A DNA stretch of 64,000 bases. It comes from Chloroflexota bacterium. Lineage in GTDB: Bacteria; Chloroflexota; UBA11872. Positions 45,661-61,360 of the stretch are shown in pieces (the stretch's first letter is position 1; every line of letters starts with the position of its first letter). Under the pieces are notes generated by a model. That model searched no databases, had not been told where the DNA came from, and worked only from the letters and a program-made list of their open reading frames with translations. The stretch lies in contig JAPOVQ010000027.1 of assembly GCA_026708035.1 (NCBI GenBank), positions 1 through 64,000 on the forward strand, in the 5' to 3' direction. Both the position numbers and the translations under genes were made by a program.

Positions 45661-45737
45661 GGGCGCGTAGCTCAGCTGGTTAGAGCGCCACGTTGACATC
45701 GTGGAGGTCAGAGGTTCGAGTCCCCTCGCGCCCACCA
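45661..45737 (+). tRNA. tRNA-Val(GAC), integration site of the island
   Basis: Acceptor GGGCGCG pairs with CGCGCCC; D arm TAGCTCAGCTGGTTAGAGC; anticodon stem CCACG/CGTGG around TTGACAT with anticodon GAC; T arm GAGGTTCGAGTCCCC; CCA encoded. Its 3' 55 bases belong to the 56-bp direct repeat found again at 62497. It is intact and presumably functional. Confidence 0.95.
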
Positions 45738-47314
45738 GACTTGACGGTAGACAGAACCGGGGCGTGGAGAGCCACCTCCTCGGCGTCCCTTCCCCCTATG
45801 GGAGCATCCTCCGGCATGGGGATGCTGTAACGCAGCAGAGCGTTGCCGGGCATGACGACGATCTCCTTCACGAAGCTCTCGATGAAGGCCCTACGCTCCG
45901 TCAGCTCGCTCTCGTTGAGGAACACGCTCAGGTCCCGGGCGTAGGCCGTGATGGTCTCCACGTCGTCCAAGACCTCCCTGCGCTGGGAGAGGATGCCCCT
46001 GGCCTCCTGCGCCGACGCCTCCAGCCTCTCCTGCCGCTCCCGGTGGTCCCTGATGCGGGGCTTGAAGTCCTCGATGTCCAGGTCCGTGGTCTCCGCCAGG
46101 TCGTAGAGTCGTCCCAGCCTGCGCTTCACGTCCTCAAGCTCCGACTCGATGGTCTGAAGTTTCTGGCGCTGCTCCTTGGCGATGCCGTCCATCTCCTCGT
46201 CCACCAGCCGAACCAGCTCCCGGATGTTGGACTCGGTGAGCACGTTCTCCCGTATCTTCCCCACCACCATCTCCTCGAAGCGACGGGCGTTGAGCCTGGG
46301 GGTCTCGCAGGCGTGCCTGCCCCGCTTCATGATGGACTGGCAGACGTAGTAGGCGTACTTTCCGCTCTTGGCGTCTTGGCCGGAGAGCGCCCCGTCGCAC
46401 GTCCGGCACTTGACCATCCCGCTCAGCAGGTAGCTGCTCCCCACCCTGCGCGGATGCGTCTTCTTGGGGGCGCGTCGGCGCATCCGCCCGTTGACTCTCT
46501 TGAACTGGGCCTTGGTGACGATGCCGGGAAACGCCTTCTCCACTCTGACCGGCTCATCCTTGCCCTTCCCGCCGACGCCCCAGAGGAGGGTTCCCGTGTA
46601 GGCTTCGTTGCGGAGGATGATGTGGACGCCGTTCTTAGACCAGAGCCTGCCCGTGGGGTTGGCGATGCCCTCGGCGTTGAGGGTCTGGGCGATGTCCAGG
46701 ATGCCCCTGCCCGACTCGGCCATGTCGAAGATGCGACGCACCACGGGAGCAGTGGCGGGATCGGGTTCCAGGGTAGGGCGCTTCTTGGCCCCGTCCTGCA
46801 CCATGCGCTTGGCGTAGCCGTAGGGCACCCTGCTGGCGACCCAGAAGCCTCTTGATGCGGCCTCCCGCATCCCCCGGCGAACCTCCTCGGCAAGATTCTC
46901 CGAGTAAAATTCGTCCACCGACTCAATGATGGCCTCCATGAGCCTGCCGGTGGCGGAGTCGTCGGCGTGCTCGGTGATTGAGACGACGCGGACTCCCTTC
47001 CTTCTCAGCATGGACTTGAAGGCGACGGCGTGCTCCCGCTTGCGGGTGAATCGACTGAATTTCCAGACAAGAATCTCCGCAAACGGGGCTTCCGGCTTGC
47101 TGGCCTCGTCCAGCATCTTGCGGAACTCCGGCCTGTCGGCGATCCTGCCGCTTTCGGCCTCGTCGATGTACTCCCTTGCCACGACGTAGCCGTTCTTGTC
47201 GGCGTAGTCCCGCAATGCCCGCAGCTGGGCGGCCACGGACAGGTCCACGTCCTGCCGGTCGCTGGACACCCTGGCGTAGAGGGCGACGGGGGTCATGTCA
47301 GTCCTTTCGTTCAT
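45680..47314 (-). CDS. Large serine recombinase (integrase)
   Basis: 544 residues. ATG 47314 is chosen for GGAGG seven bases upstream and because the resolvase domain starts there: TPVALYARVSSDRQDVDLSV, with the catalytic serine in RVSSDRQ. WKFSRFTRKREHAVAFKSML and ADDSATGRLMEAIIESVDEF complete the catalytic domain. A recombinase domain (about 175-280), a zinc ribbon (CRTCDGALS...YYVCQS...C) and a coiled coil (about 380-460) follow. The final residues GGREGTRTSDLHDVNVAL are the antisense of the tRNA-Val, and the stop TAA lies in its D arm. Confidence 0.93.
   Translation of the reverse strand: MNERTDMTPVALYARVSSDRQDVDLSVAAQLRALRDYADKNGYVVAREYIDEAESGRIADRPEFRKMLDEASKPEAPFAEILVWKFSRFTRKREHAVAFKSMLRRKGVRVVSITEHADDSATGRLMEAIIESVDEFYSENLAEEVRRGMREAASRGFWVASRVPYGYAKRMVQDGAKKRPTLEPDPATAPVVRRIFDMAESGRGILDIAQTLNAEGIANPTGRLWSKNGVHIILRNEAYTGTLLWGVGGKGKDEPVRVEKAFPGIVTKAQFKRVNGRMRRRAPKKTHPRRVGSSYLLSGMVKCRTCDGALSGQDAKSGKYAYYVCQSIMKRGRHACETPRLNARRFEEMVVGKIRENVLTESNIRELVRLVDEEMDGIAKEQRQKLQTIESELEDVKRRLGRLYDLAETTDLDIEDFKPRIRDHRERQERLEASAQEARGILSQRREVLDDVETITAYARDLSVFLNESELTERRAFIESFVKEIVVMPGNALLRYSIPMPEDAPIGGRDAEEVALHAPVLSTVKSGGREGTRTSDLHDVNVAL
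45683..45738 (+). repeat. Left attachment repeat (attL)
   Basis: 56 bp identical to 62497-62552. It covers the tRNA-Val from the end of the D arm through CCA plus one G. The last codons of the recombinase read through it on the other strand; the recombinase stop lies just outside it. Confidence 0.9.
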
Positions 47315-47316
47315 CT

Positions 47317-47538
47317 CTATCCTCCCTTGGTTTCGGTCTGTCTCTCTTGGCGTGAGCGCCGCCGCTGCATCCGTTCCTGTATTCGCCACTCCCGCTCCTC
47401 CATGTAGAGTCGTATGGCCTCACGGAGCAACTCGCTCACGGTACGCTGCTCCTCTGTCGCCACTTCCCTAAGCTCTTTCGCCGTCTCCGGCGGCAAGGAG
47501 AAAGTCACAGTATCAGTGTTTCTGGATTTGGTGGGCAT
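47317..47538 (-). CDS. Ribbon-helix-helix (CopG-like) regulator
   Basis: 73 residues from ATG 47538. RHH fold: TDTVTFSLPPETAKELREVATEEQRTVSELLREAIRLYM, then a highly charged Arg/Glu tail. It probably binds DNA as a dimer and represses itself and the recombinase. Its stop lies 2 bp before the recombinase start, and the recombinase ribosome binding site falls in its last codons, so the two are co-translated. Confidence 0.85.
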   Translation of the reverse strand: MPTKSRNTDTVTFSLPPETAKELREVATEEQRTVSELLREAIRLYMEEREWRIQERMQRRRSRQERQTETKGG

Positions 47539-48389
47539 GGGTCCACGGCCTGCCTTTACCGCACTGAGTCTTACTCTTATCATCTCGCAACCGCAACCTC
47601 GCCGTCAAGGGAGGCGTGCCAGAGCTTCGGGTACAGGCTGCTCCCGGTCTGTCTCGATGTCGTGGGGGTGTACAGGGATCGGCGTCAGTTGCAGAAATGC
47701 AAGTTGGGGCTGTTTTGAACCTGAAACCGGATGAACGGGAGGGGAGGTTGGCAGGTGAGCAAGCAATGTTTGGTCGGGGCGTGTTCCACGGCATGAGGGC
47801 GGAGTTGCAGAAATGCAAGTCGGCAAGACAGCCACATGGGAGCCACATCGGAGCAAGCGATGCCGACGCACTCTGAGACTGCGACAGAGAGATTGTTGAC
47901 CGGTCACCCCGTCCAGAGCGTCCAACAGGTCGAGTATGGGATGATCGGCGGTCCCGCCAGTTCTGCAACGAATTGTACTTTTGGGAGCTGTTGGGGGCTG
48001 ACACGGTAAGTAAGGGGAATGCCCTTTTGTCCCCTATAGGAAGTGTCGGGAACGGCTTTGGCGACAAGTTGGCAGCAAGTTGCGAGAGCTTCGGCGTCGG
48101 TAGGTTGAGGGTTGCGGGCAGGGCTGCGTAGCTATAAGCCGTAGCTGAGAAGCGAGGGAAGCGGGGGTGCGTGACGTGGCGGCGAAAACGGGCTGACCGG
48201 TCGGTTCTGCAACGATTGTACTTTTGCAGGCGGTAGCGGAGATGCGTGACCGGTCGCGTCTGCAAGTTGTCCCAGCAAAGCTGCTGGGACGACCCCTATT
48301 GGAAGCGTCGGGAACCGAAAAGACGGTCATTGTTGTACCTGATGCATCAGGGTCAGGGGCCTTCTGTGGAGGGAATTCGGCGGGTGTGG
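47539..48389. promoter_or_regulatory. Repeat-rich non-coding region, possible origin or control region
   Basis: No convincing gene in 850 bp. Repeats: GTTGCAGAAATGCAAGT at 47688-47704 and 47804-47820 (each an inverted repeat TTGCA-GAAA-TGCAA); TTCTGCAACGA(A)TTGTACTTTTG at 47961-47983 and 48205-48226; a related TCTGCAAGTTGT at 48259; the palindrome GACCGGTC at 47898, 48195 and 48248; CCCCTATnGGAAGnGTCGGGAAC near 48030 and 48293; and a perfect 9-bp hairpin GTCCCAGCA-AAGC-TGCTGGGAC at 48269-48290. The clustered CTGCAAC/GTTGCAG units resemble iterons or protein-binding operators. Confidence 0.55.
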
Positions 48390-48449
48390 TCACTGTTGCA
48401 CCTGGTACGTCAGGGCCAGGGGTCGTCTGTCGAGGGAGTACGGCGGGGG
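48326..48449. repeat. Imperfect 62-bp tandem duplication over a gene's 3' end
   Basis: 48326-48387 and 48388-48449 are about 80 percent identical (GGTCAnTGTTGnACCTG...CAGGGnCAGGGG...). The right copy encodes the last residues and stop of the Replic_Relax gene (ALTYQVQQ); the left copy is its duplicated, untranslated relative. Confidence 0.7.
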
Positions 48450-50441
48450 CAACATCCATGCGTCGCCCAGGACGCCATGCTCGGCGATGGCCTCTGCGTT
48501 GCTGGTGATGATGGGCACGTCGTCCTCTCCGTCGGCGATGTCGAGGAAGGCGGCCTCGTTGTCATGGGACTCGAAGACGAAGAGCACATAGGGCAGATGT
48601 CCCTCGTGGTCACGCTTCGCCCATCCACTCAGGAAGTACCGGCGGTAGGACCGCAGGCGTTTGGGGATGCGCTTCGGCGTGGTGGCCCTCCGCTCGAACT
48701 CCAGCAGGAAGGGACGCCACTCGCCCTTGTACTCCAGGGTGAAGGAGGCGTCGGGGTGGATCGCGTAGGTGGTCTGGTCGTGCCGGTAGCCGATGCTGGA
48801 GCGGTGGGTGGGCAGCAGGTCGAACAGGTCGTGGTCCGGGGAGTTGGCGACCTCGGCTGAGAGCATGGAAGCGAATCCTACGACGCCGGCGTGGTGGCGC
48901 AGCTGGGACTTCAGGGCGCGCAGGGCGGTCCCTGCGTAGACCGGAGGGTTTGCGTCCGTTGGTTCAGGGCTCCAGCGGTCGAGGGTGAGGCCGACAGCGG
49001 CCCGGTCCCGGCGGGCCAGATACGTCAGCCCCTCGTCGGTGAGCATGAGCAGGGAGCCGTCCTCCCGCATGAGACCGCGCTCACGGAGGGAGCGGAGCAC
49101 CTGATTGACTCTGCGCAGGGTGACGCCGCCCATGAACCCCGCGAGCTGCTCACGGGTGCACAGGGGCCAGGCGGCCAGCAGATCCAGGGCGTCCTTCTCG
49201 GCGCGGGTGAGTTGGACTGCAAGGGAGTAGGTGATCTGCTTTGTGGGCTCCGGCATGGCGGCCTTCACACGGGAGGAGTAGAGGTCTTCCAGGTCGGGCC
49301 TCGGGTTGTCGCGGAAGAAGGAGTGGGACGAGTCCAGCAGCCGGTCCATCCAGGCCAGGATGCTCCTCAGGGATGCGCTGGGGTCGATGCGCACGGGAGG
49401 GTCGTTGCCCAGGCCGCTGCCGCACTGCTGCCAGACGGCGCCGGTGTGGGCAACGGCCAGAAGCTCCCCTTCCGTCGCCGCGAAGGTCCTGCGGTGCTCC
49501 GAGGGGTCGCTCAATGACCGGATGGCCCTGCGGGTGGCCTGGTCTGCATGGGTCAGCACCAGGGTGGCGAATGGCCTCTCGCGGCTGGGGAGGCGCTCGA
49601 CGCTCCTGAGGCGGTAGCGCAGGTTGGAGGTGGGCAGGGTCGCTCCCTGGCGGATGACGCCGATGGAGCGTCCACCGGACATGGTGACCAGCATGTCGTA
49701 GGGGCCGCTGCGGTAGTGGTCCACGCGCACGGGCTTCTCATGCGGGTCAGCATCGGCGATCATGGCGGCCACGCGGTAGTGCACGGCCACGGCGTCCATG
49801 CGCTCGGCCAGCAGCCGGAACCACTGCCTGGACACCGGGTACTCGCTGAGGAAGTGGTCCGTGCCGTGCTCGATCCGCCCTCCGGTGAGGATGCCCTGTT
49901 TTGTGGGGAAGTAGCGGCGCTGGGGGCGGGAGCCGAGAACGCTCAGGTGGTGCGGCACGGAGTCCACCAAGCCCCGTTTGGCGAGCTTTCCCAACCGGGC
50001 GCGGAGGGTGGAAGCAGGGACGCGCCCGAAGCGGGCCAGCTCGTCCACGGTGGCCAGGGGCGCGGCGCACAGCAGCCGGAGGGCGTCCTCAAGAGCCTCG
50101 GAGAGCCGCTTGGAAGCGGTTACCGAGCTTGCCGCCGTTCCGCCGTCCTTCAGCCGTCGCCTGGCCTGCGCCTGGAGTATCAACCGCTCCTCGGCCTCCT
50201 CCAGCGCCTCTGCGCTGCCGCCAACACGCTCCAGCACCGCACGTGGGATGGCTCGCCCCGCTTGGCCTCGATGGAGAAAACGCCACAGGGTGTGGCGGGA
50301 GACGCCGAGGGCCTTGGCCGCCTTGGGCTTGCCGTGCAGCACGGCGTAGGTGCGCACGTAGTCCCGGACCGCCTCGTCCAGGTCTGCTCCGGCCTGCGCC
50401 GCGCCGTTCGATGCTTGTGCTTGTGGATTCGTGGCTGCCAA
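48390..50441 (-). CDS. Replic_Relax-type winged-helix protein with two modules
   Basis: 683 residues from TTG 50441, supported by GGAG seven bases upstream. The N-terminal 50 residues are a helix-turn-helix (AAKALGVSRHTLWRFLHRG). A first wHTH module (LLCAAPLATVDELARFGRVPASTLRARLGKLAKRGLV) and a second (LLAAWPLCTREQLAGFMGGVTLRRVNQVLRSLRERGLM) each begin a Replic_Relax-like unit. The C-terminal domain FTLEYKGEWRPFLLEFERRATTPKRIPKRLRSYRRYF carries the E...E...K pattern of that family's nuclease-like fold. Relatives occur with plasmid mobilisation and conjugative elements; the function is not established. Its 3' end is tandemly duplicated. Confidence 0.75.
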   Translation of the reverse strand: MAATNPQAQASNGAAQAGADLDEAVRDYVRTYAVLHGKPKAAKALGVSRHTLWRFLHRGQAGRAIPRAVLERVGGSAEALEEAEERLILQAQARRRLKDGGTAASSVTASKRLSEALEDALRLLCAAPLATVDELARFGRVPASTLRARLGKLAKRGLVDSVPHHLSVLGSRPQRRYFPTKQGILTGGRIEHGTDHFLSEYPVSRQWFRLLAERMDAVAVHYRVAAMIADADPHEKPVRVDHYRSGPYDMLVTMSGGRSIGVIRQGATLPTSNLRYRLRSVERLPSRERPFATLVLTHADQATRRAIRSLSDPSEHRRTFAATEGELLAVAHTGAVWQQCGSGLGNDPPVRIDPSASLRSILAWMDRLLDSSHSFFRDNPRPDLEDLYSSRVKAAMPEPTKQITYSLAVQLTRAEKDALDLLAAWPLCTREQLAGFMGGVTLRRVNQVLRSLRERGLMREDGSLLMLTDEGLTYLARRDRAAVGLTLDRWSPEPTDANPPVYAGTALRALKSQLRHHAGVVGFASMLSAEVANSPDHDLFDLLPTHRSSIGYRHDQTTYAIHPDASFTLEYKGEWRPFLLEFERRATTPKRIPKRLRSYRRYFLSGWAKRDHEGHLPYVLFVFESHDNEAAFLDIADGEDDVPIITSNAEAIAEHGVLGDAWMLPPPYSLDRRPLALTYQVQQ

Positions 50442-50755
50442 TCGGATGCTCCAACTCGCTAACGTCCCAACATCTCATCTTGAACGGGAAATTGCTCGCA
50501 TGTAATGCCTCGCAGGACGTTGTTATGGGACGAGATTTGTGGTAGATGGCGATGCACTCGGAGAGGGCTCTGAAAGGTTCTCCAGGCGGCGTAGCGGCCT
50601 CTCTTGCGTCCTTGCCTTGGCTTCCCTGGTGCCGCCGGTCATCGCCGCTCCGTCGAGTCTGGGGAAGTGGGGAGGGTTTGCCAACGCTCCATAACGGGTG
50701 ACGCGTACGACACTATCCCCATTGCCCGCCGCCCATGAGCGGCTCATCCGCGAGC
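50442..50755. other. Gap upstream of the Replic_Relax gene
   Basis: No firm gene. A leftward frame at 50523-50747 (74 codons) has no ribosome binding site and no recognisable motif. The palindrome ATGAGC-G-GCTCAT lies near 50735. The promoter of the Replic_Relax gene should be near 50470-50510. Confidence 0.35.
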
Positions 50756-50953
50756 CTACCCTTCGGGCGGCGTCTCCGGCGATGCTGAGACGGCCTGGAA
50801 TGCCTCTCGCCGCAGGTGAGCGCGGACGATCATGCGAGCCAGGATGCGCAGCCCGTGTCGCATCTGTTCCCGCTGCTTGGGGGTGTACGCCGCCGATGCG
50901 TTCGCGGACGTGGTGACGCTCTTTGACGGTCTCTTTCTATCGGCCCTTCTCAT
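50756..50953 (-). CDS. Small hypothetical protein
   Basis: 65 residues. ATG 50953 is preceded by GGAGGA six bases upstream, a convincing start. The product is very basic: MRRADRKRPSK at the start and PKQREQMRHGLRILARMIVRAHLRREA as an amphipathic helix. No family recognised. Small basic ORFs like this are common in integrative elements and could bind nucleic acid. Confidence 0.55.
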   Translation of the reverse strand: MRRADRKRPSKSVTTSANASAAYTPKQREQMRHGLRILARMIVRAHLRREAFQAVSASPETPPEG

Positions 50954-51499
50954 CCCGCTCCTCCGTGCCGGTCTCGGCGGGATGCAAGCTGATCTCTCCG
51001 CCGTTGACGCCGAATCTCGGGCGTCGTTAGACCAGTCTGCGGGCCTAGGAGAGCGAGCGGTATCCCTCGGAGAGGACTACGCGCCTGTAATCCCTTTCGA
51101 GGGACTACATCGATGTAATATGGGACTGCTAGGCGCTTGATGCGTCAGCACATGACCCCGCGAGGGTCCTCCGCGATGCCAAGGAGCAGTACACGGAAGG
51201 AAGCTCGCTGCAAGCTGCACCTTCACGCCGTTTCAAAGCTGGAGCGGGAAGGGCAGGAATTCTCTACCGAACTTAAAACAGCGAACGCTTTGTGTCAGGG
51301 GCTGGTTGCGACGGAAGGAGCAAAGCCGCTAGGTGAAACCCACAAGTTTGTAGGCAGAATCGAACATCCGGCTGCAAGCGCGCCAGCGGAGAGCAGCAAG
51401 TTTGCGGACGACGGGCGGGTTGGTGAGAAAGGGAACACCGTGTGGATGCGGAACGGTTAAGCGAGTGCTCTGAGCATCGCCATCGCATCTTTCTTCAGT
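50954..51499. other. Gap with one doubtful open frame
   Basis: A rightward frame at 51137-51460 (107 codons) has plausible composition in its second half (LHLHAVSKLEREGQEF) but no ribosome binding site before either methionine, and no motif. Nothing else resembles a gene. The interval is GC-poorer than the chromosome. A near-repeat CCCTnnnGAGGACTAC / CCCTTTCGAGGGACTAC occurs around 51065 and 51092. Confidence 0.3.
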
Positions 51500-51877
51500 T
51501 TAGTCACTCGCGTGTTGAGTCCCCGTTGAGGACTTGTCATTCTTGGCCCATTTCCCAATCATTAGCGCAGCGAAGGCGGAGAACATCAGGCCGTTCAAGA
51601 CGAATGGAACCACCCAGATAGCCCACGCGCCCCATGACGGGATTGAGACGTCTTTGCCTGCCGTCGTCGCCATGAAGAGAATGAGCACCAAAAGCCCCGC
51701 AGGAGAACTTACCAGAGCCGTTCCGAGACCCCACATCCACCCCAAACCCATATTCCTGCGGAACCATCCGGCTGCCAGACTGGTGAGCATGGTCATGGTC
51801 GGCGCGAGACCGAAGACAAAATAGAAGAACAGGTTTACCCTCAAGGCTTCCACTTCGGCGGATTCCATGCCCCACAT
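51500..51877 (-). CDS. Small membrane protein, unknown
   Basis: About 125 residues with four hydrophobic segments (for example LFFYFVFGLAPTMTMLTSLAAGW, GLLVLILFMATTAG, AWAIWVVPFVLNGLMFSAFAAL). The start is set at ATG 51877, with GAGGTG upstream. No family recognised. Topology suggests an integral inner-membrane protein; the tail after the last segment is hydrophilic. Confidence 0.6.
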   Translation of the reverse strand: MWGMESAEVEALRVNLFFYFVFGLAPTMTMLTSLAAGWFRRNMGLGWMWGLGTALVSSPAGLLVLILFMATTAGKDVSIPSWGAWAIWVVPFVLNGLMFSAFAALMIGKWAKNDKSSTGTQHASD

Positions 51878-52009
51878 CAATTCACCTCTTCCCGCTTCTG
51901 CCGCAGTACCACGCCATGCGGGTCAGCAGCCACGACGGGCCGCCGCGATTTCATCGCTTGACGGGCGCAGGCGGGCATTCCGGTACTCCTTCGCAGGTTC
52001 CCAATCCGC
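51878..52009. other. Short gap
   Basis: No gene seen. It carries the ribosome binding site and promoter region of the membrane-protein gene on the left. Confidence 0.35.
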
Positions 52010-52215
52010 TCACTGCGACTGCCGCAGATAGATGCGCTCAAGGGGCGAGATCATGCCGTTGGCGGGGAAGCTCCACTCGAAGAAGTCCCGGTTGTCCACC
52101 GCGTGCACGATGACATTCTGGAACTTCTCCAGCAGGCCGGGGGGAGCCGAGTACGCCTTCATGTAAGATCCAGGGTGACTGTGACCGGCTCCCCGGGCAC
52201 TATGAGACTCATATC
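52010..52215 (-). pseudogene. Possible frameshifted small gene
   Basis: Two leftward frames look protein-like and join at one point. After GGAAGG, an ATG near 52213 begins MSLIVPGEPVTVTLDLT and stops at TGA. The next frame, starting within that stop (ATGA), continues MKAYSAPPGLLEKFQNVIVH and later DFFEWSFPANGMISPLERIY, ending at 52010. They read as one beta-rich protein split by a frameshift, or as two coupled small genes. No family recognised. Confidence 0.3.
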
Positions 52216-52302
52216 TGCCTTCCACCCTTGTCCGAAGATTGTGGGCGGAGGCCCGCGAAGGCGAGCCTGAGTTGCACTCGGCTCAGGTGGAGGTGACGCC
52301 TC

Positions 52303-53499
52303 TTACGGCGGACGGGACTGGAACAGCAGGAAAACGTCGTCGTCCGTCTGCATGAAGAGACCGTCGCCGTAGATGCCGTACCGCGTTGCCTGCTGCACCA
52401 GAGAGAAGTGGCGCTTCTCCTGCCCTATCAGGCCATCCGGCTCCTCACATAGCTTCGCCGTAGAGAAGAAGGACTGTCGATCCACCGTGACCGTTCCGTC
52501 TTCGACCTTTGCCGAACCCCCGTAAGAGTTGCACCCCATGAACCCGCTGATGCCGTGGCCGTCGAACTCTATCGTCACCTCGGTTCCCTGGGCCACCTCG
52601 GTGGTCCGGTGGTGCCACATCCCGGAGTCGAGTCTGAGCTCGACGAAGGCCGTGAGGGACCAATCAGTGTCGGTGATGTCCTCGACGGCCTGCGGCAGCG
52701 GCTCGAAGGTCAGCGTATTGCCCCTGATGCTCCAGATTGTGAGGCGGCTCGATCCCCCTTCCTGGTCAATCGAGTACTCCCTCGCCCACGTCAGGGAGTC
52801 GGTGAACTCGCCCTCCAGAATCCGCTCGTTCTTTGCGCACGACTGCCATGACTGAGAGCTCCCTAACATTCCTGTCCCCCGAAACCTCAGAGCACCCTCG
52901 GATGTTCCGTACGTCGCTGCGAAGCTGCGACAGGCGGTCGCTCCGGTGACCAGGCGGTGGTCCAGGAAGGCCAGGGTTGGCGCGCCAACGCCGTCCATCG
53001 CATCGCCCTCCATGAGGAGCCGCCACGCCGTGCCCTTAAGGTCGATGGGACTCCCCGGCAGCGGCGCCCGCTTGACGAAGATGAGCCTGGTCGCGCCGCC
53101 GCTGTCCAGGATCTCAAGCCGATCGTCCGCAATGCGGAACCTCTCCCCCTGCAACAGGGCCGCCACGTATGCATCGGCCTGGGCCATGACGCCCTCGGGC
53201 TCCTGGCACAACATCTCGGTGGCCCCGAAGGGTGGGATCGAGAGCACGCCATCCGTTCCGGCGACAAGCGTACCCTCCTCGGACCGCCCGCCGTAAGAGT
53301 TGCATCCGTCGATGCCGTTGATCGAGTTGTCGCCAATCCTCAGCGTTATCGTAGATTCTTCTATGACCGGTCGACCGTCCAACGATTCGAGGACCCATGT
53401 GCCTTCTCCAGCCAGGTCTGGGTCGGGATCGCCGCCGCCGCAGGCAGCCACGAGGAACAAGAGAATGATCAGCGGCCCAATTGGGACGGTAGACCTCAC
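52303..53499 (-). CDS. META-domain lipoprotein with three repeats
   Basis: 398 residues from GTG 53499. Lipobox FLVAACGG puts the lipidated Cys at 20. META-type units: LAGEGTWVLESLDG...INGIDGCNSYGG...MLCQEPEGVMAQADAYVAAL; a middle unit LKGTAWRLLMEGD; and a third DTDWSLTAFVELR...ISGFMGCNSYGG...KLCEEPDGL. META domains are found in HslJ and surface proteins and have no known enzymatic role. The start overlaps the stop of the BsuPI gene (GTGA), so the two lipoproteins are coupled. Confidence 0.85.
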   Translation of the reverse strand: MRSTVPIGPLIILLFLVAACGGGDPDPDLAGEGTWVLESLDGRPVIEESTITLRIGDNSINGIDGCNSYGGRSEEGTLVAGTDGVLSIPPFGATEMLCQEPEGVMAQADAYVAALLQGERFRIADDRLEILDSGGATRLIFVKRAPLPGSPIDLKGTAWRLLMEGDAMDGVGAPTLAFLDHRLVTGATACRSFAATYGTSEGALRFRGTGMLGSSQSWQSCAKNERILEGEFTDSLTWAREYSIDQEGGSSRLTIWSIRGNTLTFEPLPQAVEDITDTDWSLTAFVELRLDSGMWHHRTTEVAQGTEVTIEFDGHGISGFMGCNSYGGSAKVEDGTVTVDRQSFFSTAKLCEEPDGLIGQEKRHFSLVQQATRYGIYGDGLFMQTDDDVFLLFQSRPP

Positions 53500-55109
53500 T
53501 TGACCACCTCCAACGCATGGGCTTCGGTTACAAGCTTCTTGAATGAGTCCAGATTCAGCATACTACGCACCAGATAGGTGCCTGGGGAAACTGGCTCCCC
53601 ACGGTTGTCCACCTGCTCCCACTCCCCGACGAACTCCAGCTCCTCACCGGGTTCCAGAGTTCTGCTGTCCAGTGGCTGGAGGGTTATCTTGGCACACTTC
53701 CAGTGCCATACTTGCATTCCGCCAGATGTGGAGACCACGAAGTCATGGGGGGGTCTGCCACCGAGAGAAAAGCTCACAGGCTTGTCACTAATGTTTCGCA
53801 ATCTCAGCTTCATCCACACCGTCTCGCCGTATGGGGTCTGGGGCACCACCTCCAGCGAATAGTCGATGGCGCTGAGGAACGCTTCGTCCGCAGGCTCACC
53901 AGGGTCGAGAGGCCATTGACTAATGCCTGCGCATCCAACGTGGATCACAATAGCCTCCCGCGGGACATCCAGTGTCGACAGGGCAGTCTCCCACTCCTCA
54001 CGAGCCCCGCGCAGAGGGTACACACCTATTTCAATGCGGTTCTCGACTTCGTTCAGGTCGGTCCACGCAAGGCCGGGGACATTCTTGACATCTACGAGTC
54101 GCTCATACCACCTGGTCAGGTCGGCCGCACTGTATTCCTCCTCTGCCGACGCAGGTAACGGAGTCGTGGCAGTTGCAGCAGTCGATCTTGCGACGGTGGT
54201 CGACACGGTCAGGCCCCCAACGCGTTCGGTGCCCTCGAAGACCACCATGGAAACGATAGCGTAGCCAGTGGGGGCTGTCTGAAACAACTCCCCATCCCAA
54301 CGGAAGGCCCCGTGGTCCAGCGACACCTCGCCGAGAGGCAGCTTACTTTGGTCGACGAACTCGATGCCCAGTTCGACTCTATCGCCGTCGTGATAGCCTG
54401 CCCCGGAGATGGAGAACGGCTCACCCAAGCGTATCTGTTCGGGTAACGCGTAATACTCGACACTGGGCATGTATTCTTCGACCCGCTGGAACCACTCGGT
54501 TAGCGCCGTGGACACGACTACCTCGTTGCGGTGGAGCAGCTCCCAGTGGTCCGGTACAGGCAGGCAGTTCGTCTCCCTCCCTTCCGACGTGAGGTCACAT
54601 TTTAGCAACTGCTGTACCGACCAAGTCGTGCCGTTGAGAAACCTGAGGTTTATGACCAGCCCGGAATACGAGGTCCATGTGGATTCGCCATCCTCATTCA
54701 TCTGCACCACGTCCACAAGAGCGCCACCTTCTATCGCACGGAGCAATTGGTCGATGGTCGGTGCGTGGGCGTCCAGGTCCCCCCACAGAGGGTCATGTTT
54801 TCCCTTGTCCCAGCGAATGGGATATCTATATGAAGGAGACGCATAGACGACCTCAACGTCCTTAGCGTCGACAGGCAGCGGCGAGGGAGGTGCAGCAACG
54901 GAAGGCTGGGGAGTGGCGGCTTGTGCTGATGTGGAAACGGTGGGCTCGTTGCCAGTACTGGGCTGAGCGTCGGAGCATCCTCCCGTGGCCGCCAATAGCA
55001 GCAGTACCAGTCCACCCATGATGATCCGGGGCGTGAATTCGGTCCGCCGTCCCAATCCCAGTTTCTTGCCGTAAGACACGAAGAAATCTCCTATGTACCG
55101 CCCAACCAC
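53496..55109 (-). CDS. Lipoprotein with C-terminal BsuPI-like domain
   Basis: 537 residues. Signal region MGGLVLLLLAATGGCS gives a probable lipid-anchored Cys near 45. A T/P-rich linker is followed by about 300 residues I cannot assign; an Ig-like part (IRLGEPFSISGAGYHDGDRVE) is visible. A C-terminal domain, VWMKLRLRNISDKPVSFSLG through EPGEELEFVGEWEQV and VSPGTYLVRSMLNLD, resembles the BsuPI intracellular proteinase inhibitor fold. Coupled with the META lipoprotein downstream. Possible surface protection module. Confidence 0.75.
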   Translation of the reverse strand: MVGRYIGDFFVSYGKKLGLGRRTEFTPRIIMGGLVLLLLAATGGCSDAQPSTGNEPTVSTSAQAATPQPSVAAPPSPLPVDAKDVEVVYASPSYRYPIRWDKGKHDPLWGDLDAHAPTIDQLLRAIEGGALVDVVQMNEDGESTWTSYSGLVINLRFLNGTTWSVQQLLKCDLTSEGRETNCLPVPDHWELLHRNEVVVSTALTEWFQRVEEYMPSVEYYALPEQIRLGEPFSISGAGYHDGDRVELGIEFVDQSKLPLGEVSLDHGAFRWDGELFQTAPTGYAIVSMVVFEGTERVGGLTVSTTVARSTAATATTPLPASAEEEYSAADLTRWYERLVDVKNVPGLAWTDLNEVENRIEIGVYPLRGAREEWETALSTLDVPREAIVIHVGCAGISQWPLDPGEPADEAFLSAIDYSLEVVPQTPYGETVWMKLRLRNISDKPVSFSLGGRPPHDFVVSTSGGMQVWHWKCAKITLQPLDSRTLEPGEELEFVGEWEQVDNRGEPVSPGTYLVRSMLNLDSFKKLVTEAHALEVVK

Positions 55110-55135
55110 TCACTCACTGCGCGGAATTGGACTCA

Positions 55136-55294
55136 TTATGATAGGACCGTGCAGCGGTGGACGTCAGCTTCGGGGTAGAAGACATCGGCCCTCCCGAAGG
55201 GCAGCCTGAAGGACTGGAACCGGCTGGGATTCTTGTGCACCAGGAATCCCAGGTCGGTCGCAGGTTGATGCGTCGTCGTGATAGTGAGCAACAT
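55136..55294 (-). pseudogene. Truncated hen1 (RNA 3'-terminal 2'-O-methyltransferase), N-terminal remnant
   Basis: A 52-codon frame from ATG 55294 to TAA 55136 matches the conserved start of bacterial Hen1: MLLTITTTHQPATDLGFLVH, then KNPSRFQSFRLPFGRADVFY and PEADVHRCT. Full Hen1 is about 450-490 residues. Here it ends after LS; no methyltransferase domain follows. Hen1 methylates the 2'-OH of cleaved RNA before sealing by Pnkp; neither partner is in the island. Family identity is recognised from the motif block, not from a search. Confidence 0.72.
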
Positions 55295-55421
55295 TATCTA
55301 AGCGGTGAGACGTATACACCCGCGTGGTTTAACTCCCGGCGGGCCTTTGTGCTCAAGTCTTCCTCCCCACGACTAACTGGTTGGACATTGGTCAATCCTC
55401 CTAGTTGCTAGCGAGAAACTT
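55295..55421. other. Short gap upstream of the Hen1 remnant
   Basis: No gene seen. TGTATACG near 55313 could be the -10 of the leftward hen1 promoter, still present although the gene is broken. Confidence 0.35.
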
Positions 55422-55438
55422 CTTTCTGACGCAGAAAG
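55422..55438 (-). terminator. Hairpin terminator of the DUF6946/mcrCB operon
   Basis: CTTTCTG-ACG-CAGAAAG, perfect 7-bp stem, 6 bp after the DUF6946-like stop, followed leftward by AAGTTTCTC. A weak T tract, but placed where the operon should end. Confidence 0.55.
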
Positions 55439-55444
55439 GTGGCA

Positions 55445-56194
55445 TCATAGGCTCACATGGTCATAGACGCAGACCAACTTCTTGCCGTCGAGCACGAGCT
55501 CGTCAGCCCTAAAGCTCTCGCTTTCGCGCAAGAGAGTTCTACCGCGGGCGGCTTCTATGAACTCGGCATAGTCCTGTTGATTCGCCGAGCCTTTCCCTGC
55601 ATCGTACATTGAAGTCTTGAAGACCAAGATATAGAACACGGAGACCTTTCCCGGTGCGGCAACCGTTCCAGCGGTTCCGGTCAAGAGTTGATAGCGAACA
55701 TCTGCAAACCGAGAAGAGTTCGGCGAACCTTTAGCCGAAAAATATTTCGCTAACAGGTCCCTCACCCGCTCTGGCGCGTTGGTGTTCCTCCCTGCCTCCC
55801 GTGACTTCATTGCCGATGAGAACCTGCTCCCCACCGTATTCCCAAAGGATTCGTCTACCTTGGATTCTATTCCCACAAACAGGCTTTCCCTGAGGTTCAG
55901 TTGACCTACCTCACCCGTGACTCCAAGATCCAAGTTGCTAGGGTTTCCTGGATAGGGGTCGAACTTTGCCAGATACTCCGGTTTGGCCTTCTCCAACTTT
56001 ATGTGCCGTGATAGGACTTGAGACATACGCTCTTCCAGATATGCAGCACCATTCCGGTCCATAATGAACTCGGCGAGTGAATAGGCGCTCCGTCCCCTCT
56101 TCCAATGCCTGATCTTCGAAGTCCCATCAAAGATTCGACTTCGCCACTGATCTATGCTTGATATCCTTTGACACCTAGAATCTACGACTCTCAT
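55445..56194 (-). CDS. DUF6946-like putative nuclease, McrBC-associated
   Basis: 249 residues. Matches in pattern the DUF6946 family: WKRGRSAYSLAEFIMDRNGAAYLEE, a middle NLDLGVTGEVGQLNLRESLFVGIESKVDESFGNTVGSRF, and YQLLTGTAGTVAAPGKVSVFYILVF. The E...ExK-like spacing in GIESKVDESFG suggests a PD-(D/E)XK-type fold. Family assignment is from memory of the motif. It follows mcrC by 47 bp on the same strand and probably belongs to the same defence operon. Lower GC than the chromosome. Confidence 0.6.
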   Translation of the reverse strand: MRVVDSRCQRISSIDQWRSRIFDGTSKIRHWKRGRSAYSLAEFIMDRNGAAYLEERMSQVLSRHIKLEKAKPEYLAKFDPYPGNPSNLDLGVTGEVGQLNLRESLFVGIESKVDESFGNTVGSRFSSAMKSREAGRNTNAPERVRDLLAKYFSAKGSPNSSRFADVRYQLLTGTAGTVAAPGKVSVFYILVFKTSMYDAGKGSANQQDYAEFIEAARGRTLLRESESFRADELVLDGKKLVCVYDHVSL

Positions 56195-56241
56195 GCTTCG
56201 TGCCCCTTATCATTGAACTGATATCACCACGTTGCGGGCCA

Positions 56242-57459
56242 TCAAGCTGCGGACCTACTACGGCGCAGTGCTTTCGCCTCGTCCCGGAGTTCCTCCACCC
56301 TGCGAGCCACTCCGACCACGCGATTGAGCACCACATCGAGTGTCCCGGACAGGTCGAGAGCGGCAATCTCGAGCCGCTTGTGGAAACGTCTGACCTCGTG
56401 GACCACTGGCTTAGTCTCGCCCTGCGCGTAGATAAGCATCCCTCCTGGCAGATCAAGGGCCGTTACGTAGGCGAGCAACTGATACAGATCATCGTGGTGT
56501 ACTCGCCCCTCAGCCACCTTGTATTTGGCGTCACCCACGAACAGGCAGTCCCTACCATGCCACCAAGTGAGGTCAGGTCTGAGTTTCACATTGCCTCTCC
56601 TATCAAGGCTTGGAATGTATCTTTCGAGGAACAAGCTCCTTGAGACACTAAGCTGCTCCCGCAGTGCTTGAGTCACGAACTCCTGGAAGACGACGTTCAT
56701 ATCAACTAGAAACCCGGACGCCCGCACTTCTCCCCGGCGAGACTCGAACGCACTGTGACGTAGGACCAGCCGCGACAGCGCGACTACCTCACGATAATGC
56801 TCGTTCAGCCGATCAAAACGGACATCCGGCACGGAGAGCGGCGAGAACTCAACCAGTGATACGTTGTCGAGCGTCCCCACAATCCGCCCCAACTCACTCC
56901 GTGCAGCCTTCCATCGCAGCCGCATCCCACCAAGTTTCGCAGTTGCTGCCTTGACCAGTCGATTCGCCAGAATGTCGTCCGTGAACTCGTCGTACCGGAC
57001 CTCGACCGGCAGGGCGGTGCCGAACCTTCTCCGCATCTGCTCGCCGAACCTGACGCGACCACGCACGGTCTGCAAAGCCTCCTCCTCTTCAAGGTATCCA
57101 TGCAGCAGCCCGCGAGAAAACGCCCGCCGGGCGGCCGAGGCAAGCGAGAGAGCCAGTACATCCGGCAGTGCGTATTCGTGTGGGTAGTCGAACAGTTGCC
57201 GCTGGGGCCTGAACGCGCCCATCGCGTAGCACACAAGCGAAAGCAACTGGGGGATGGGGATCTTCGGCTCGATGAGCACCGACAAGTCGCCAATATCCAC
57301 AGCTCCAACAATTGAGCCGGACGTAATTCGGTACGTGCGGTCCGTCCCAATAACAGGCTGGAACACGAGCGATGGCAGGGTTTCTTGGAGCGCATCACGT
57401 TCGGTGGCCGAAAGCGCATGCTCGCTAGTGGCGTACTCCTTTAGGTTGATCTCCCGCAT
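56242..57459 (-). CDS. mcrC: McrC-family restriction endonuclease subunit
   Basis: 405 residues. The N-terminal McrC fold (LVFQPVIGTDRTYRITSGSIVGAVDIGDLSVLIEPKIPI) bridges to the AAA ring. The C-terminal nuclease core has KLRPDLTWWHGRDCLFVGDAKYK, the D...DAKYK form of the PD-(D/E)XK site. With McrB it cuts modified DNA. Its start lies 2 bp after the mcrB stop. Confidence 0.9.
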   Translation of the reverse strand: MREINLKEYATSEHALSATERDALQETLPSLVFQPVIGTDRTYRITSGSIVGAVDIGDLSVLIEPKIPIPQLLSLVCYAMGAFRPQRQLFDYPHEYALPDVLALSLASAARRAFSRGLLHGYLEEEEALQTVRGRVRFGEQMRRRFGTALPVEVRYDEFTDDILANRLVKAATAKLGGMRLRWKAARSELGRIVGTLDNVSLVEFSPLSVPDVRFDRLNEHYREVVALSRLVLRHSAFESRRGEVRASGFLVDMNVVFQEFVTQALREQLSVSRSLFLERYIPSLDRRGNVKLRPDLTWWHGRDCLFVGDAKYKVAEGRVHHDDLYQLLAYVTALDLPGGMLIYAQGETKPVVHEVRRFHKRLEIAALDLSGTLDVVLNRVVGVARRVEELRDEAKALRRSRSAA

Positions 57460-57461
57460 CG

Positions 57462-59855
57462 CTACAAGTCCCTGTCCCCGTTCTCAGTACCGCCCTCGTC
57501 CTCCTCGCGGCTTGCTTCCTGCACCTCGCCGTCATCCACTATCGAGTCTGAACCGTCTGATCCGCGCAAGTCGCCGAGATCGAACTCGCCGAGGCGGTCG
57601 CCTTCTCCGAAGAGGCGTTCCTCAATGTAAGGGAGGATGCTGTGAATCCATATGCGCTCGACTCTTTCTTCATTGAGGTCAGCCTTCATGAAGTAGCTCG
57701 GCCCTATGGCCGCGTGCCGGTCATCGCTTAGCTTCTGGTTTGCGCGGTCGACGACGTCGGCCACCCACTCCATGCCAGGTGCCTTCAGCTGGAGCCAGCG
57801 ACGGAGTACGCCCCTTATCGGCTCGTCGTCTGGGTGAAATTCGACGAAGTAGAAACGGCGGCGCAGCGCCAGGTCCACCAACGCAATGGACCGGTCTGCG
57901 GTGTTCATCGTCCCGATGATGTATAGGTTGGGAGGCAGCGAGAAATCCTCTTCATCATCCCTCTGGTACTGGAGGCGTATCTTTTGGTCGCGGTACTCCA
58001 ACAGGAAGTAAAGTTCTCCAAACACCTTGGCGATGTTGCCCCGGTTGATCTCGTCTATGACCAAGAAGTGCTTCTCGTTTTCTTCCTGACGTGCGAGCTT
58101 GGCAGCTCGTAGGAGCGGCCCGTCTCTCAGTTCGAAGCCAGCAACCCCACCTTTCAGAGTGGGGCGGAAGCCCTGCACGAAGTCCTCGTAGGCATAGGAT
58201 GGATGTAGCTGCACCAGCGAAACCCGCTCCTCCGATCCCGCAAGATGCTCAGCTAGCTTCCGCGCGACATAGGTCTTTCCCGTGCCCGGCGGCCCCTGGA
58301 AGATGACTTGCCCTTTGTCGTAGAGCAGCGCCTCGATCTTGTCGAGGAAATCATCGGGGTCGGCAAGCAACAATTCTTGTGCAAGCTCGTGCAGGTTCTC
58401 AGACCGACCATTTGGTCCGCCTGTCTCGGATTTGTGGTCGGGGATTACCCAGACGAGTGACTGAGCGTCGAGCCGGTGGCGGACAGGCAGTCCACGTATC
58501 TGCGCCTCGCTTATGAACCGATCAAGAAATTGAAGGGCATGTTCGTACAGGGTTGCCTCGTCCGCGTTGTGTTCAGATTGGTCGTATCCAGTACGAGCGT
58601 ACGCATTCGCGAATGTGGTGACCCTGAACGGTGGATACTGCTCAGCATCCAACCCCATCAGCAACTGGGAAATGACGTTCATGCGGGTCCCCGCCCCGCT
58701 TGTCACTGATTTGGGGAAAAGCGTGCTAAAGGCGCGCACGCGGTCTTCAAGGGATGAAGCATCCCTCGTCCACAGAGCCAGAAGCGCTCGCTGTGCGTCG
58801 TCTGGAGACCCATCTATCCAACGACGGAAGTTGTCTTGCTGTGTGAAGTGGATGATGTTGCCAGAGATGCCTCTCTTTACCAAGTCGCCCCAGTCGTCGC
58901 CACCGGCGAGAACAGCTTCTCGGGCGCCCGCAAGTTTTCGACCTATTTCGAATTTGTAGCTCAGTTCCCAGCTTTCGAGCCTCCCGGTGTCCAGATACTC
59001 CGAGGCGTGTCTGAGGTACTCATCCCAAGGATCGGGCGTCGAGCGTTCCCATCGGCGACGTATGTCCGGATCGTAGAAATCCAGATCTTTCCCAAGGCCG
59101 GCCTCAAGGCCTCGGCGAATCTGCACCAGCCTTCGGTCAACGTCTGCCGTTTCATCTGAGGTGAAGTGTGCAAATGCCCCTGCCTTGGCAATGTCCTCCT
59201 TTTGCTTGACGGAAACGGTCCCTTCGAAAGTGTCGGGGTGTACCAGATGGAGCAAAGCCTCCCGCTGGGCACTCGGACGGTCTGGGTGACCGCGGAGGAG
59301 TTGACTGCGAAAGCTGACACCCGTCGCGAATTCCTTGAAGGCCCACGGATCGCACAACCGACTATCGCGCTCGCTCGGCGCCTGTTCCTTCCATTGCTCA
59401 ACGAATTCAATGACGAATGCCACCTGATAAGGGCGATGTTGTGTGAGGGCTTGGCTCCGGGCGATGCCTGGCGATAGGCCACCCACGAGTTCGTCAGGAA
59501 TAGTCGAGACTGGTGCCCCCCAACTCAGCACCTGTTCAACCTGGCTCTTCTTAGTCTCTCCTCCCATTCCTCCTTTCCAGATAACGAGGAACTGGGCAAA
59601 AAGCGCCTCTGCCATCAGTTGGTAGACCTCCGGTGGACTGTCTTCCAACTGAGTCTTCAGCTTGTCATAGAAGCCGCCTTCTCCCTCATCCGGTCTGTCC
59701 AGGAACCGCTTCCGCAGTTCCCCAAGCCACTGGCTCGACCAGATTGGTCTACCCGGTGTGAATAGCGAATCGTCGGCCCGAAGTGCACGATTGACCCATA
59801 TAGCCGCCGCTACGTATACCTTCTCTAGGCCCTCTCCCGTCTTCTTACTCCCCAT
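57462..59855 (-). CDS. mcrB: McrB-family AAA+ GTPase with large unassigned N-terminal region
   Basis: 797 residues from ATG 59855, with AAGGAGA upstream. The AAA domain starts near residue 500: Walker A GPPGTGKT (about 520), FLVIDEINRGNIAKVFGEL, and the McrB signature IIGTMNTADRSIALVDLALRRRF. The C-terminus is very acidic. The first 500 residues contain no domain I recognise (it is not the usual short EVE/YTH reader) and may read DNA modification or another signal. First gene of mcrB-mcrC-DUF6946. Confidence 0.88.
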   Translation of the reverse strand: MGSKKTGEGLEKVYVAAAIWVNRALRADDSLFTPGRPIWSSQWLGELRKRFLDRPDEGEGGFYDKLKTQLEDSPPEVYQLMAEALFAQFLVIWKGGMGGETKKSQVEQVLSWGAPVSTIPDELVGGLSPGIARSQALTQHRPYQVAFVIEFVEQWKEQAPSERDSRLCDPWAFKEFATGVSFRSQLLRGHPDRPSAQREALLHLVHPDTFEGTVSVKQKEDIAKAGAFAHFTSDETADVDRRLVQIRRGLEAGLGKDLDFYDPDIRRRWERSTPDPWDEYLRHASEYLDTGRLESWELSYKFEIGRKLAGAREAVLAGGDDWGDLVKRGISGNIIHFTQQDNFRRWIDGSPDDAQRALLALWTRDASSLEDRVRAFSTLFPKSVTSGAGTRMNVISQLLMGLDAEQYPPFRVTTFANAYARTGYDQSEHNADEATLYEHALQFLDRFISEAQIRGLPVRHRLDAQSLVWVIPDHKSETGGPNGRSENLHELAQELLLADPDDFLDKIEALLYDKGQVIFQGPPGTGKTYVARKLAEHLAGSEERVSLVQLHPSYAYEDFVQGFRPTLKGGVAGFELRDGPLLRAAKLARQEENEKHFLVIDEINRGNIAKVFGELYFLLEYRDQKIRLQYQRDDEEDFSLPPNLYIIGTMNTADRSIALVDLALRRRFYFVEFHPDDEPIRGVLRRWLQLKAPGMEWVADVVDRANQKLSDDRHAAIGPSYFMKADLNEERVERIWIHSILPYIEERLFGEGDRLGEFDLGDLRGSDGSDSIVDDGEVQEASREEDEGGTENGDRDL

Positions 59856-59946
59856 TGTTCTCCTTCCGCTGTGGTCACTTGTCTCAAGTGCTTTGTAGGA
59901 GATTACTCAGTCGTCAGACGTGCCCCGACAATCTTGGCTATCGCTT

Positions 59947-60192
59947 TCAACTGAACTCGACAAAGGTGTCCAGCGCCGTCAGGTCCACGGCCTGGCGCAA
60001 GCCCTCCGCTGGCGGAGCTTCCTCGACTACTTCTTCGTCCTGTACCAGTCCGGTGATGGTGAGGAAGTTCCGCACGGCACTGGTGATGTTCGCCTCAAGC
60101 TCGCCATCTGCGTGTCGGCGCAGTATTTCTGCGGCGGCCTGAGCGCCGCGAGGGTCTTCCGCGGTGATGTGTGGAACTCGTTCTGTAGTCAT
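59947..60192 (-). CDS. Small acidic hypothetical protein
   Basis: 81 residues. Helical N-terminal part (AQAAAEILRRHADGELEANITSAVRNFLTITGL) and acidic C-terminus. No family recognised. It sits between mcrB and the HigA-like gene on the same strand, 27 bp below the latter, and may belong to the toxin-antitoxin transcript or to the defence operon. N-terminal ribosome binding site is weak. Confidence 0.55.
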   Translation of the reverse strand: MTTERVPHITAEDPRGAQAAAEILRRHADGELEANITSAVRNFLTITGLVQDEEVVEEAPPAEGLRQAVDLTALDTFVEFS

Positions 60193-60218
60193 GTACTGCC
60201 CATACCCGCGTCGGGACT

Positions 60219-60632
60219 TCAGACTGCTGGCGACGGTTGCTCGACGGAAGAACCGGCGACTTCAGCCAGAGGGCCGTTGGAGGAGACAGCTTCAAGCTTG
60301 GAAGCTCCTTCGCTCTTTACATGAACCGGCTCGGAGGAAGCGGCAGGTGCCATGGGAGCGACGCTAACGGAGGGCTTCAACCCCATGCAGGCCAACAGTC
60401 GTCCGATGTGGCCGATGGTGGGATTGGCGTCGCCCCTTTCCAGTTTTGCGATGTACGCCTGGGACACCCTTGCTCGCTCCGCCAGGGCCGATTGAGTCAT
60501 CCCGGCGGCCTCCCTTGCGTCTGCAAGCGCCGCCGCTACCTCAAGCTTGGCGGCCTCCGAACCGAACTCCTGTCGATACTCAATGTCTTCCAGCCACTCG
60601 GCGTGACTGTCCTCAACCTCATGCCGTCTCAT
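60219..60632 (-). CDS. HigA-like XRE-family antitoxin
   Basis: 137 residues from ATG 60632, chosen because GAGGAGAAG lies seven bases upstream; an upstream ATG at 60662 would overlap the toxin gene. XRE helix-turn-helix: AALADAREAAGMTQSALAERARVSQAYIAKLERGDANPTIGHIGRLLACMGLKP. A disordered serine/glutamate-rich tail of 45 residues follows. It would bind the operator at 60997 and neutralise the toxin encoded just upstream. Confidence 0.85.
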   Translation of the reverse strand: MRRHEVEDSHAEWLEDIEYRQEFGSEAAKLEVAAALADAREAAGMTQSALAERARVSQAYIAKLERGDANPTIGHIGRLLACMGLKPSVSVAPMAPAASSEPVHVKSEGASKLEAVSSNGPLAEVAGSSVEQPSPAV

Positions 60633-60642
60633 GGTCTTCTCC

Positions 60643-60987
60643 TCATCCTCCAAGATGCTCATCTCGTAAGCTCTCGGCTCTTGCCAGTTCCGAGCGTGGA
60701 GTCCTTCGCGACCTCTTTCGAAAGCCATTCAAAATGACGTACCGCTCGGCCTCTGAATGCCAGAAGTAGAATATCCGGTGCTGGCCGGCGCGAAGCTGCC
60801 ATACGTCGTTCATCTTCTCTGCCCATCGCCTCGCAACGAGACGCTGTGAACCTTCCTGCCCGAGGCGTTCAACGAATGCCCTGATTCTCGCCGCCTCCGT
60901 CTTCTGCCCCGCGTGATAGACGCTCCGTACGTACTCCTCATAGGGGATGGCACCGTTGCGCCGCTTATGGAAGACCACTGGATACAT
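60643..60987 (-). CDS. HigB/RelE-like toxin (Gp49-like)
   Basis: 114 residues from ATG 60987. RelE-superfamily pattern: PYEEYVRSVYHAGQKTEAARIRAFVERLGQ, MNDVWQLRAGQHRIFYFWHSEAERYVILNGFRKRSRRTPRSEL, with the conserved basic and aromatic residues. A ribosome-dependent mRNA interferase is the family norm. The gene precedes its antitoxin (toxin first, typical of higBA); the toxin stop lies 10 bp before the antitoxin start. Confidence 0.85.
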   Translation of the reverse strand: MYPVVFHKRRNGAIPYEEYVRSVYHAGQKTEAARIRAFVERLGQEGSQRLVARRWAEKMNDVWQLRAGQHRIFYFWHSEAERYVILNGFRKRSRRTPRSELARAESLRDEHLGG

Positions 60988-60996
60988 TGCACGAAT

Positions 60997-61013
60997 ATAA
61001 CCCTTGTGGTTAT
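60997..61013 (-). promoter_or_regulatory. Operator/promoter of the toxin-antitoxin pair
   Basis: Inverted repeat ATAACC-CTTGT-GGTTAT just upstream of the toxin start. It overlaps a possible -10 and is a good candidate for XRE autorepression. Confidence 0.6.
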
Positions 61014-61360
61014 GTATGTCAATCCGCCTGGGGTGGACCCGCACCCGAATTCACGGGGGTGCTCAATGGCGCTATCGCCCGTTGGCTGGCCCACGAATCC
61101 GGCAAGGGTGGTGGGCCAGCGATGGGCATTGAGTGGTAGACTAGTCTTGCTCGGTGGACGCAGTAGGCTAGCCGCAATTGTGCCGCGACAGCTTACGAGA
61201 TACTACAGTCCCCAAGCCACAACTCGAAGAAAGTTCTGCCTACCGTCAACTCAGGCCCACCACCTTTGACAGACCCAATACCCTGAAAACGTCGGCTATG
61301 AAGGCGGTATTTCGCGCCGGCTTCGCGAAGTTCGCGGACACATAGCGGAGGCGTGCAGAT
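61014..61360. other. Gap between toxin operon and phosphotriesterase-family gene
   Basis: No gene seen. A direct repeat TTCGCGCCGGCTTCGCGAAGTTCGCG near 61308 has internal CTTCGCGAAG. The right end carries CGGAGG, the ribosome binding site of the next gene. The GC content rises from left to right here, which may mark an internal junction of the island. Confidence 0.4.

Follow-up and report, generated by a model that had tools for sequence, protein, structure and literature searches.

Fragments of tRNA 3' ends are common as attachment (att) repeats of tyrosine integrases, and large serine integrases are usually regarded as single-site enzymes whose targets are often protein genes. Integration of serine recombinases into tRNA genes has been called rare, with described examples in the AICEs of Mycobacterium (at tRNA-Leu) and in phage phiRSM1 (at tRNA-Ser) (PMC3218068). 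Multi-targeting large serine recombinases have loosely AT-rich targets, and 63% of their clade carry the DUF4368 domain (Durrant 2022, PMC10083194). The closest described system is DsiB, a serine recombinase of about 540 aa from the ssrA genomic islands of Dehalococcoides, in which the 3' end of the gene overlaps attL and the reading frame meets no stop codon until it has left the island and entered ssrA or a neighbouring island; the islands occur in tandem, and the function of the overlap was left open (McMurdie 2011, PMC3146451). DsiB was described as ssrA-specific, with a 20-bp repeat, insertion inside the T-loop, and a partner protein, DsiA (PMC3146451).

The window analysed here (the whole stretch of DNA under study, 64,000 nucleotides) holds an integrative element, E1, with a serine recombinase, Rec1, and part of a second element, E2, with its recombinase Rec2 (Table 1). 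The Rec1 family resembles DsiB in that the gene overlaps attL and is ended by a stop codon lying outside the element (of 77 readable members, 74 have a frame open past the boundary), and in that elements stand in tandem; Dehalococcoides, moreover, belongs to the bacterial class of most relatives found here. Compared with DsiB as published, the family differs in occupying many tRNA genes, with its boundary at the CCA end and an 8-bp repeat, and no DsiA-like partner was noticed. A serine recombinase integrating in a tRNA gene is also what characterizes the AICEs and phiRSM1, but each of these uses one tRNA, whereas 18 isoacceptors are used in the Rec1 family. The target of SPbeta SprA is not known to be a tRNA gene, and SprA, unlike Rec1, has no tRNA-derived tail; in architecture the two are the same, SprA aligning with Rec1 residues 80-512 (YokA; PDB 9dxh). 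With the enzymes of Durrant 2022 (PMC10083194) the family shares the occurrence of near relatives at different targets with a common core dinucleotide, yet the targets here are tRNA 3' ends, and the domain search, which matched PF00239, PF07508, and PF13408 in both Rec1 and Rec2, gave no DUF4368 match in either.

Table 1. Features of the window discussed in the text.
Feature	Position	Strand	Basis or remark
tRNA-Val(gac), attB gene of E1	45661..45737	+	ARAGORN; uninterrupted copies in four sister genomes
Rec1, large serine recombinase	45680..47314	-	Resolvase, Recombinase, Zn_ribbon_recom domains
E1 attL core GCCCACCA, tRNA positions 69-76	45730..45737	+	Empty-site comparison
Probable E1 crossover dinucleotide CC, tRNA 71-72	45732-45733	+	attP symmetry centre
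Integrative element E1, 15.5 kb	45738..61262	.	Boundaries from four sister genomes
E1 left attP arm GACTTGACGGTAGACAG	45738..45754	+	Doubles as 3' end of the rec1 coding sequence
Putative small CopG-like ORF in E1	47317-47583		
Replic_Relax protein in E1	48390-50441		Domain search
META-domain, BsuPI-domain, and DUF6946 proteins (E1 cargo)			Domain search
McrC in E1	56242-57459		Domain search
McrB in E1	57462-59855		Domain search
HTH regulator in E1	60219-60728		Domain search
E1 right attP arm CTGCCTACCGTCAACTC	61236..61252	+	Inverted copy of left arm
E1 attR core GCCCACCA	61255..61262	+	Followed by CCTTTGACAGACCC from 61263
Phosphotriesterase-family gene	61361..62425	+	Chromosomal, not E1 cargo
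Second tRNA-Val copy, E2 attachment site	62475..62551	+	3' 55 bp identical to first copy
Rec2, second serine recombinase, E2 left end	62329..64000	-	62% identical to Rec1

Judged by its domains and by the sequence of its attachment sites, Rec1 is a large serine integrase. Its minus-strand reading frame ends in STVKSGGREGTRTSDLHDVNVAL and a stop; the element itself encodes 45738-47314, and the final codons with the stop (45680-45737) are antisense tRNA-Val. As the earlier note had observed, the C-terminal 18 codons overlap the tRNA gene and the stop TAA (45680-45682) falls just outside an exact 56-bp repeat (45683-45738, identical to 62497-62552); this TAA is the antisense of TTA in the tRNA D-loop, and the proposal that Rec1 takes its stop codon from host tRNA DNA is supported.

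The boundaries of E1 could be read from four congeneric sister genomes in which the site is empty (G002-G005). There the uninterrupted tRNA-Val, ending in GCCCACCA, joins CC(C/T)TTGACAG with no insertion, and the sequence directly 3' of it is the one found here from 61263 on (CCTTTGACAGACCC), so that E1 is placed at 45738-61262; its right junction with the chromosome reads CAGGCCCACCA up to 61262 and CCTTTGACAG beyond. The tRNA-Val gene is intact after integration, and the repeat common to attL and attR is the 8-bp GCCCACCA, not the 56-bp repeat that had previously been taken for the attachment repeat. The far end of E1 carries only this GCCCACCA, without the long tRNA 3' fragment of the tyrosine-integrase kind; the tyrosine-like repeat that the earlier note had seen in this serine recombinase system therefore falls away, while its premise that short cores are usual for serine integrases stands. 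Both attP ends were identified for E1 only: joining its ends by script gives ...CTGCCTACCGTCAACTC AGGCCCACCA GACTTGACGGTAGACAG..., with CTGCCTACCGTCAACTCAGGCCCACCAGACTTGACGGTAGACAG as the predicted junction of the circle. This computed attP forms an inverted repeat around the CC before ACCA, with symmetry at 20 of 28 positions, where 500 shuffles gave a mean of 13.1 and a maximum of 17. A short common core and an imperfect inverted-repeat attP are what would be expected of a serine integrase, and the predicted sites of E1 agree with this.

A second empty-site case comes from an element at tRNA-Ile in the source genome, with a recombinase (“B-type”) that is 57% identical to Rec1 and ends at C18:3642 ff. 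The right end of the element, GTCCAGTCCGGCCCACCA followed by GACACC, lies on contig C18, and the sequence downstream of it directly follows tRNA-Ile (...GGCCCACCA) in four sister genomes (L105, L107-L109). The source-genome tRNA-Ile is on contig C34, where CCACCA is followed by the left end of the element, AGCTGGACAAAATC; the sequence read 3' of this CCACCA, AGCTGGACAAAATCAAGAACC, is the mirror image of the B-type right arm. Although they lie on different contigs, we infer that these ends bound one element and not a tandem array. The attP of the tRNA-Ile element, for which the right arm of the relative L025 was used, is again centred on CC, with symmetry at 19 of 24 positions. The left end AGCTGGACAAAATCAAGAACC also follows tRNA-Val in genome G001, as it does tRNA-Ile in the source genome (L128 from ~767; L134); these related elements, found at two different tRNA genes, have no integrase on the tRNA side.

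The wider family was surveyed in one genome per species, mostly metagenome assemblies, which gave 80 loci, nearly all in Chloroflexota MAGs; together with Rec1, Rec2, and L002, 81 sequences were readable at the C-terminal end. ARAGORN placed a tRNA at the boundary in 49 members, comprising 18 isoacceptors for Ala, Arg, Gln, Glu, Ile, Leu, Met, Tyr, and Val. In 45 of these the tRNA 3' end lies exactly 92 nt past the conserved Tyr codon of the YxIPM motif, and the remaining four, in which CCA is apparently not encoded, have a boundary displaced by 1-2 nt. The stop codon falls inside the tRNA in 27 of the tRNA-sited members and beyond it in 22. Three family members, L059, L078, and L095, stop before the boundary.

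Three further observations concern the extent and decay of the family. Relatives on viral contigs are ~43% identical, and the ends of two of them (L167, L168), on which ARAGORN made no call, were read by eye as antisense tRNA, so that the arrangement may reach well beyond Chloroflexota. The recombinases L053 and L073 (the latter cut by a contig end) are 97.7% identical and have very different left att arms at different tRNAs, which suggests that the gene end was exchanged together with the att arm. The source genome also contains a degenerate recombinase gene of this family, interrupted by internal stops (L005-L007, G000:C3:87386-88620).

Phylogenetic analysis of the recombinases was used to ask which property of the target follows the enzyme. 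Among 45 rows of the tree the isoacceptor changes 31 times (close to the 34.4 ± 1.2 of shuffled labels), and the dinucleotide at tRNA positions 71-72 changes 8 times (13.3 ± 0.8 when shuffled, with none of 300 shuffles as low). With 31 of 45 rows, CC outnumbers all other classes, which limits the contrast between dinucleotide classes, and all five CA rows also have G73, so that 71-72 and 73 are not separable in those rows; a generic pattern search for the right ends of elements with a core other than CC returned background numbers only. Among the 12 pairs of recombinases at least 90% identical, all 12 have the 71-72 dinucleotide in common, two have the tRNA in common, and 10 sit at different tRNA genes.

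These distributions bear on whether each enzyme is specific to one tRNA, with specificity switching often in evolution. Single-site specificity is the usual condition (82.8-88.3% of large serine recombinase clusters; PMC10083194), and users of Gln and of Glu do form tight groups on the tree, but those groups also fit the dinucleotide rule (CA and CT, respectively). Within the CC class alone the isoacceptor carries no phylogenetic signal (22 changes, against 21.0 ± 1.2 when shuffled), and one MAG holds two recombinases, 97.1% identical and with left arms differing at one base in the last 30, at Ala-ggc (L100) and at Ile-gat (L101). We consider one-tRNA specificity unlikely on this evidence. It is reasonably probable, in our judgement, that tRNA genes are instead treated as a class, the enzyme reading common features of their 3' ends and the attP core dinucleotide setting which tRNAs are eligible. 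The T-arm, which in every tRNA is equally far from the CCA end, would be a plausible feature for such recognition.

The identity stretch GCCCACCA by itself permits a crossover anywhere within it, and its position can be narrowed by other means. Insertions at Ala genes keep their own T70 despite attP arms of related elements that carry GGCC, making a crossover 5' of position 71 unlikely at these genes, and a crossover confined to CCA would leave 71-72 unconstrained. Taken together, the T70 of Ala genes, the dinucleotide constraint, and the centre of attP symmetry point to a crossover at 71-72.

In the model that we propose, attP would be a short inverted repeat whose left half doubles as the 3' end of the integrase gene, and strands would be exchanged at the ACCA end or immediately 5' of it, with the 71-72 dinucleotide as the most likely point. 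The attP would then need only to restore ACCA for the tRNA to stay intact, and any tRNA gene whose 71-72 matches the attP core would be eligible regardless of its anticodon. With the integrase gene stopless up to the boundary, its frame would continue into the adjoining DNA, be this the antisense strand of the tRNA (at attL), the opposite attP arm (in the circle), or another element next to it. Overall, we regard it as likely that Rec1 represents a tRNA-general large serine integrase that crosses over beside ACCA, with its tail as a by-product.

The fate of the tail was followed by comparing the two forms of the gene. In attL the Rec1 tail is REGTRTSDLHDVNVAL, and in attP, with the ends joined by script, it is PELTVGRTFFELWLGDCSIS followed by a stop; the C-terminus thus does differ between the two, as the earlier note had foreseen. 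Its further claim, that the stop is acquired only on integration, does not hold, since the computed attP form stops after 20 other codons (SGGPELTVGRTFFELWLGDCSIS) and integration is consequently not required for a stop. Most economically, the left attP arm is the 3' end of the gene and has no stop in that frame, so the tail would be supplied by whatever DNA adjoins it.

It had also been suggested that the integrated tRNA provides a functional stop, and that a switch between integrated and excised states controls the enzyme through its C-terminus. The idea is not new, having been put forward as a possibility for DsiB by McMurdie et al. (PMC3146451), and besides the difference between the attL and attP tails it could draw on L071, an independent junction resembling the attP form, whose terminal peptide, PDLTVGSTIFEMWLGL, is similar to that of attP-form Rec1. 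This likeness, however, follows from the att arm being an inverted repeat. The present data speak against such control, which we consider very improbable: a stop is present in the attP form too, tails in the family range from 2 to 184 codons with no common sequence or length beyond that imposed by the tRNA genes or att arms, three members end before the boundary altogether, and the alignment of Rec1 with solved relatives ends at residue 512 of 569 (closest long solved relative). The 18-codon tail of Rec1 looks like a by-product of the position of the att site, and is probably neutral.

What, then, is the 56-bp repeat? Its second copy sits inside the end of the Rec2 gene, and its 56th base (G), which each element contributes from its own end, agrees by chance. 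The resemblance to tRNA-Val extends into the upstream flank and covers ~98 bp at 89%, which indicates that 62475..62551, on which ARAGORN made no tRNA call, is not a bare 3' fragment but a complete tRNA-Val copy whose 5' part has decayed. In all four of G002, G003, G004, and G005, tRNA-Val is followed by CC(C/T)TTGACAG and then by the phosphotriesterase gene, which is accordingly not cargo, as it adjoins an uninterrupted tRNA-Val; in three of the four a second, uninserted tRNA-Val copy follows this gene (intact in G004, decayed in G002 and G003). Given the same gene order in the sister genomes, the second copy is chromosomal, and the window corresponds to the sister-genome order with one element inserted behind each tRNA-Val copy. 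The states of the second copy (L129-L131, window 62475-62551) have gene conversion by the first copy as a possible reason. Element E2 begins at 62552 and extends beyond the window, and its right end was not found on the contig; the Rec2 frame traverses the decayed tRNA copy and reaches its stop 55 codons past the point where Rec1 ends. Movement of E2 and the phosphotriesterase gene by unequal crossover was rejected, as the second gene copy it predicts is absent from the source genome; so was a 56-bp attL/attR with a 55-codon extension in the circle, the second copy being chromosomal in the sister genomes. The exactness of the repeat and the commonness of tRNA 3' fragments as tyrosine-integrase att repeats might suggest that it forms the attL and attR of one element of that manner, reaching 62552 and including the phosphotriesterase, but with this gene directly 3' of the uninterrupted tRNA-Val in four sister genomes, the second copy present after it in three, and a mirror of the left arm ending in GGCCCACCA exactly at the empty-site boundary 61262, such an element is refuted unless all sister genomes underwent the same precise deletion, which is barely credible.

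Serine recombinase genes were also found tail to tail across a common GGCCCACCA (L024-L026, L028, L029, L032-L034, L043, L045), with further such pairs in L054, L060, L093, and L096; these are best read as B-type elements inserted between the tRNA and an older element of a second kind (“A-type”). Some junctions in the family are the right end of a B-type element, which fits tandem accretion at one tRNA. The possibility that A and B are dual recombinases at opposite ends of one element was rejected, as B-type elements occur alone at tRNA genes. With regard to cargo, the McrC and McrB homologues of E1 (56242-59855) constitute a restriction system for modified DNA and adjoin the DUF6946 protein; together they are likely anti-phage cargo.

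Nothing relevant was returned when the literature was searched for Chloroflexi serine recombinases at tRNA genes, and we found no description of a family whose targets are tRNA 3' ends as a class, within the limits of a core dinucleotide, which is weak evidence given that few subscription journals were covered. New here are the boundary exactly at the tRNA 3' end (45/49), the range of 18 isoacceptors at which it is found, and the dinucleotide rule. If tRNA genes are indeed read as a class, anticodon and amino acid would be irrelevant to the choice of target, and swapping two bases of attP should redirect the element to a different set of tRNA genes. The missing stop codon that was puzzling in Dehalococcoides in 2011 would have a simple reading, in which the attachment site doubles as the 3' end of the gene and adjoining DNA makes up the tail. 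General use of tRNA 3' ends would explain how such elements find sites in new hosts, why they pile up in tandem, and why the tRNA is left unharmed.
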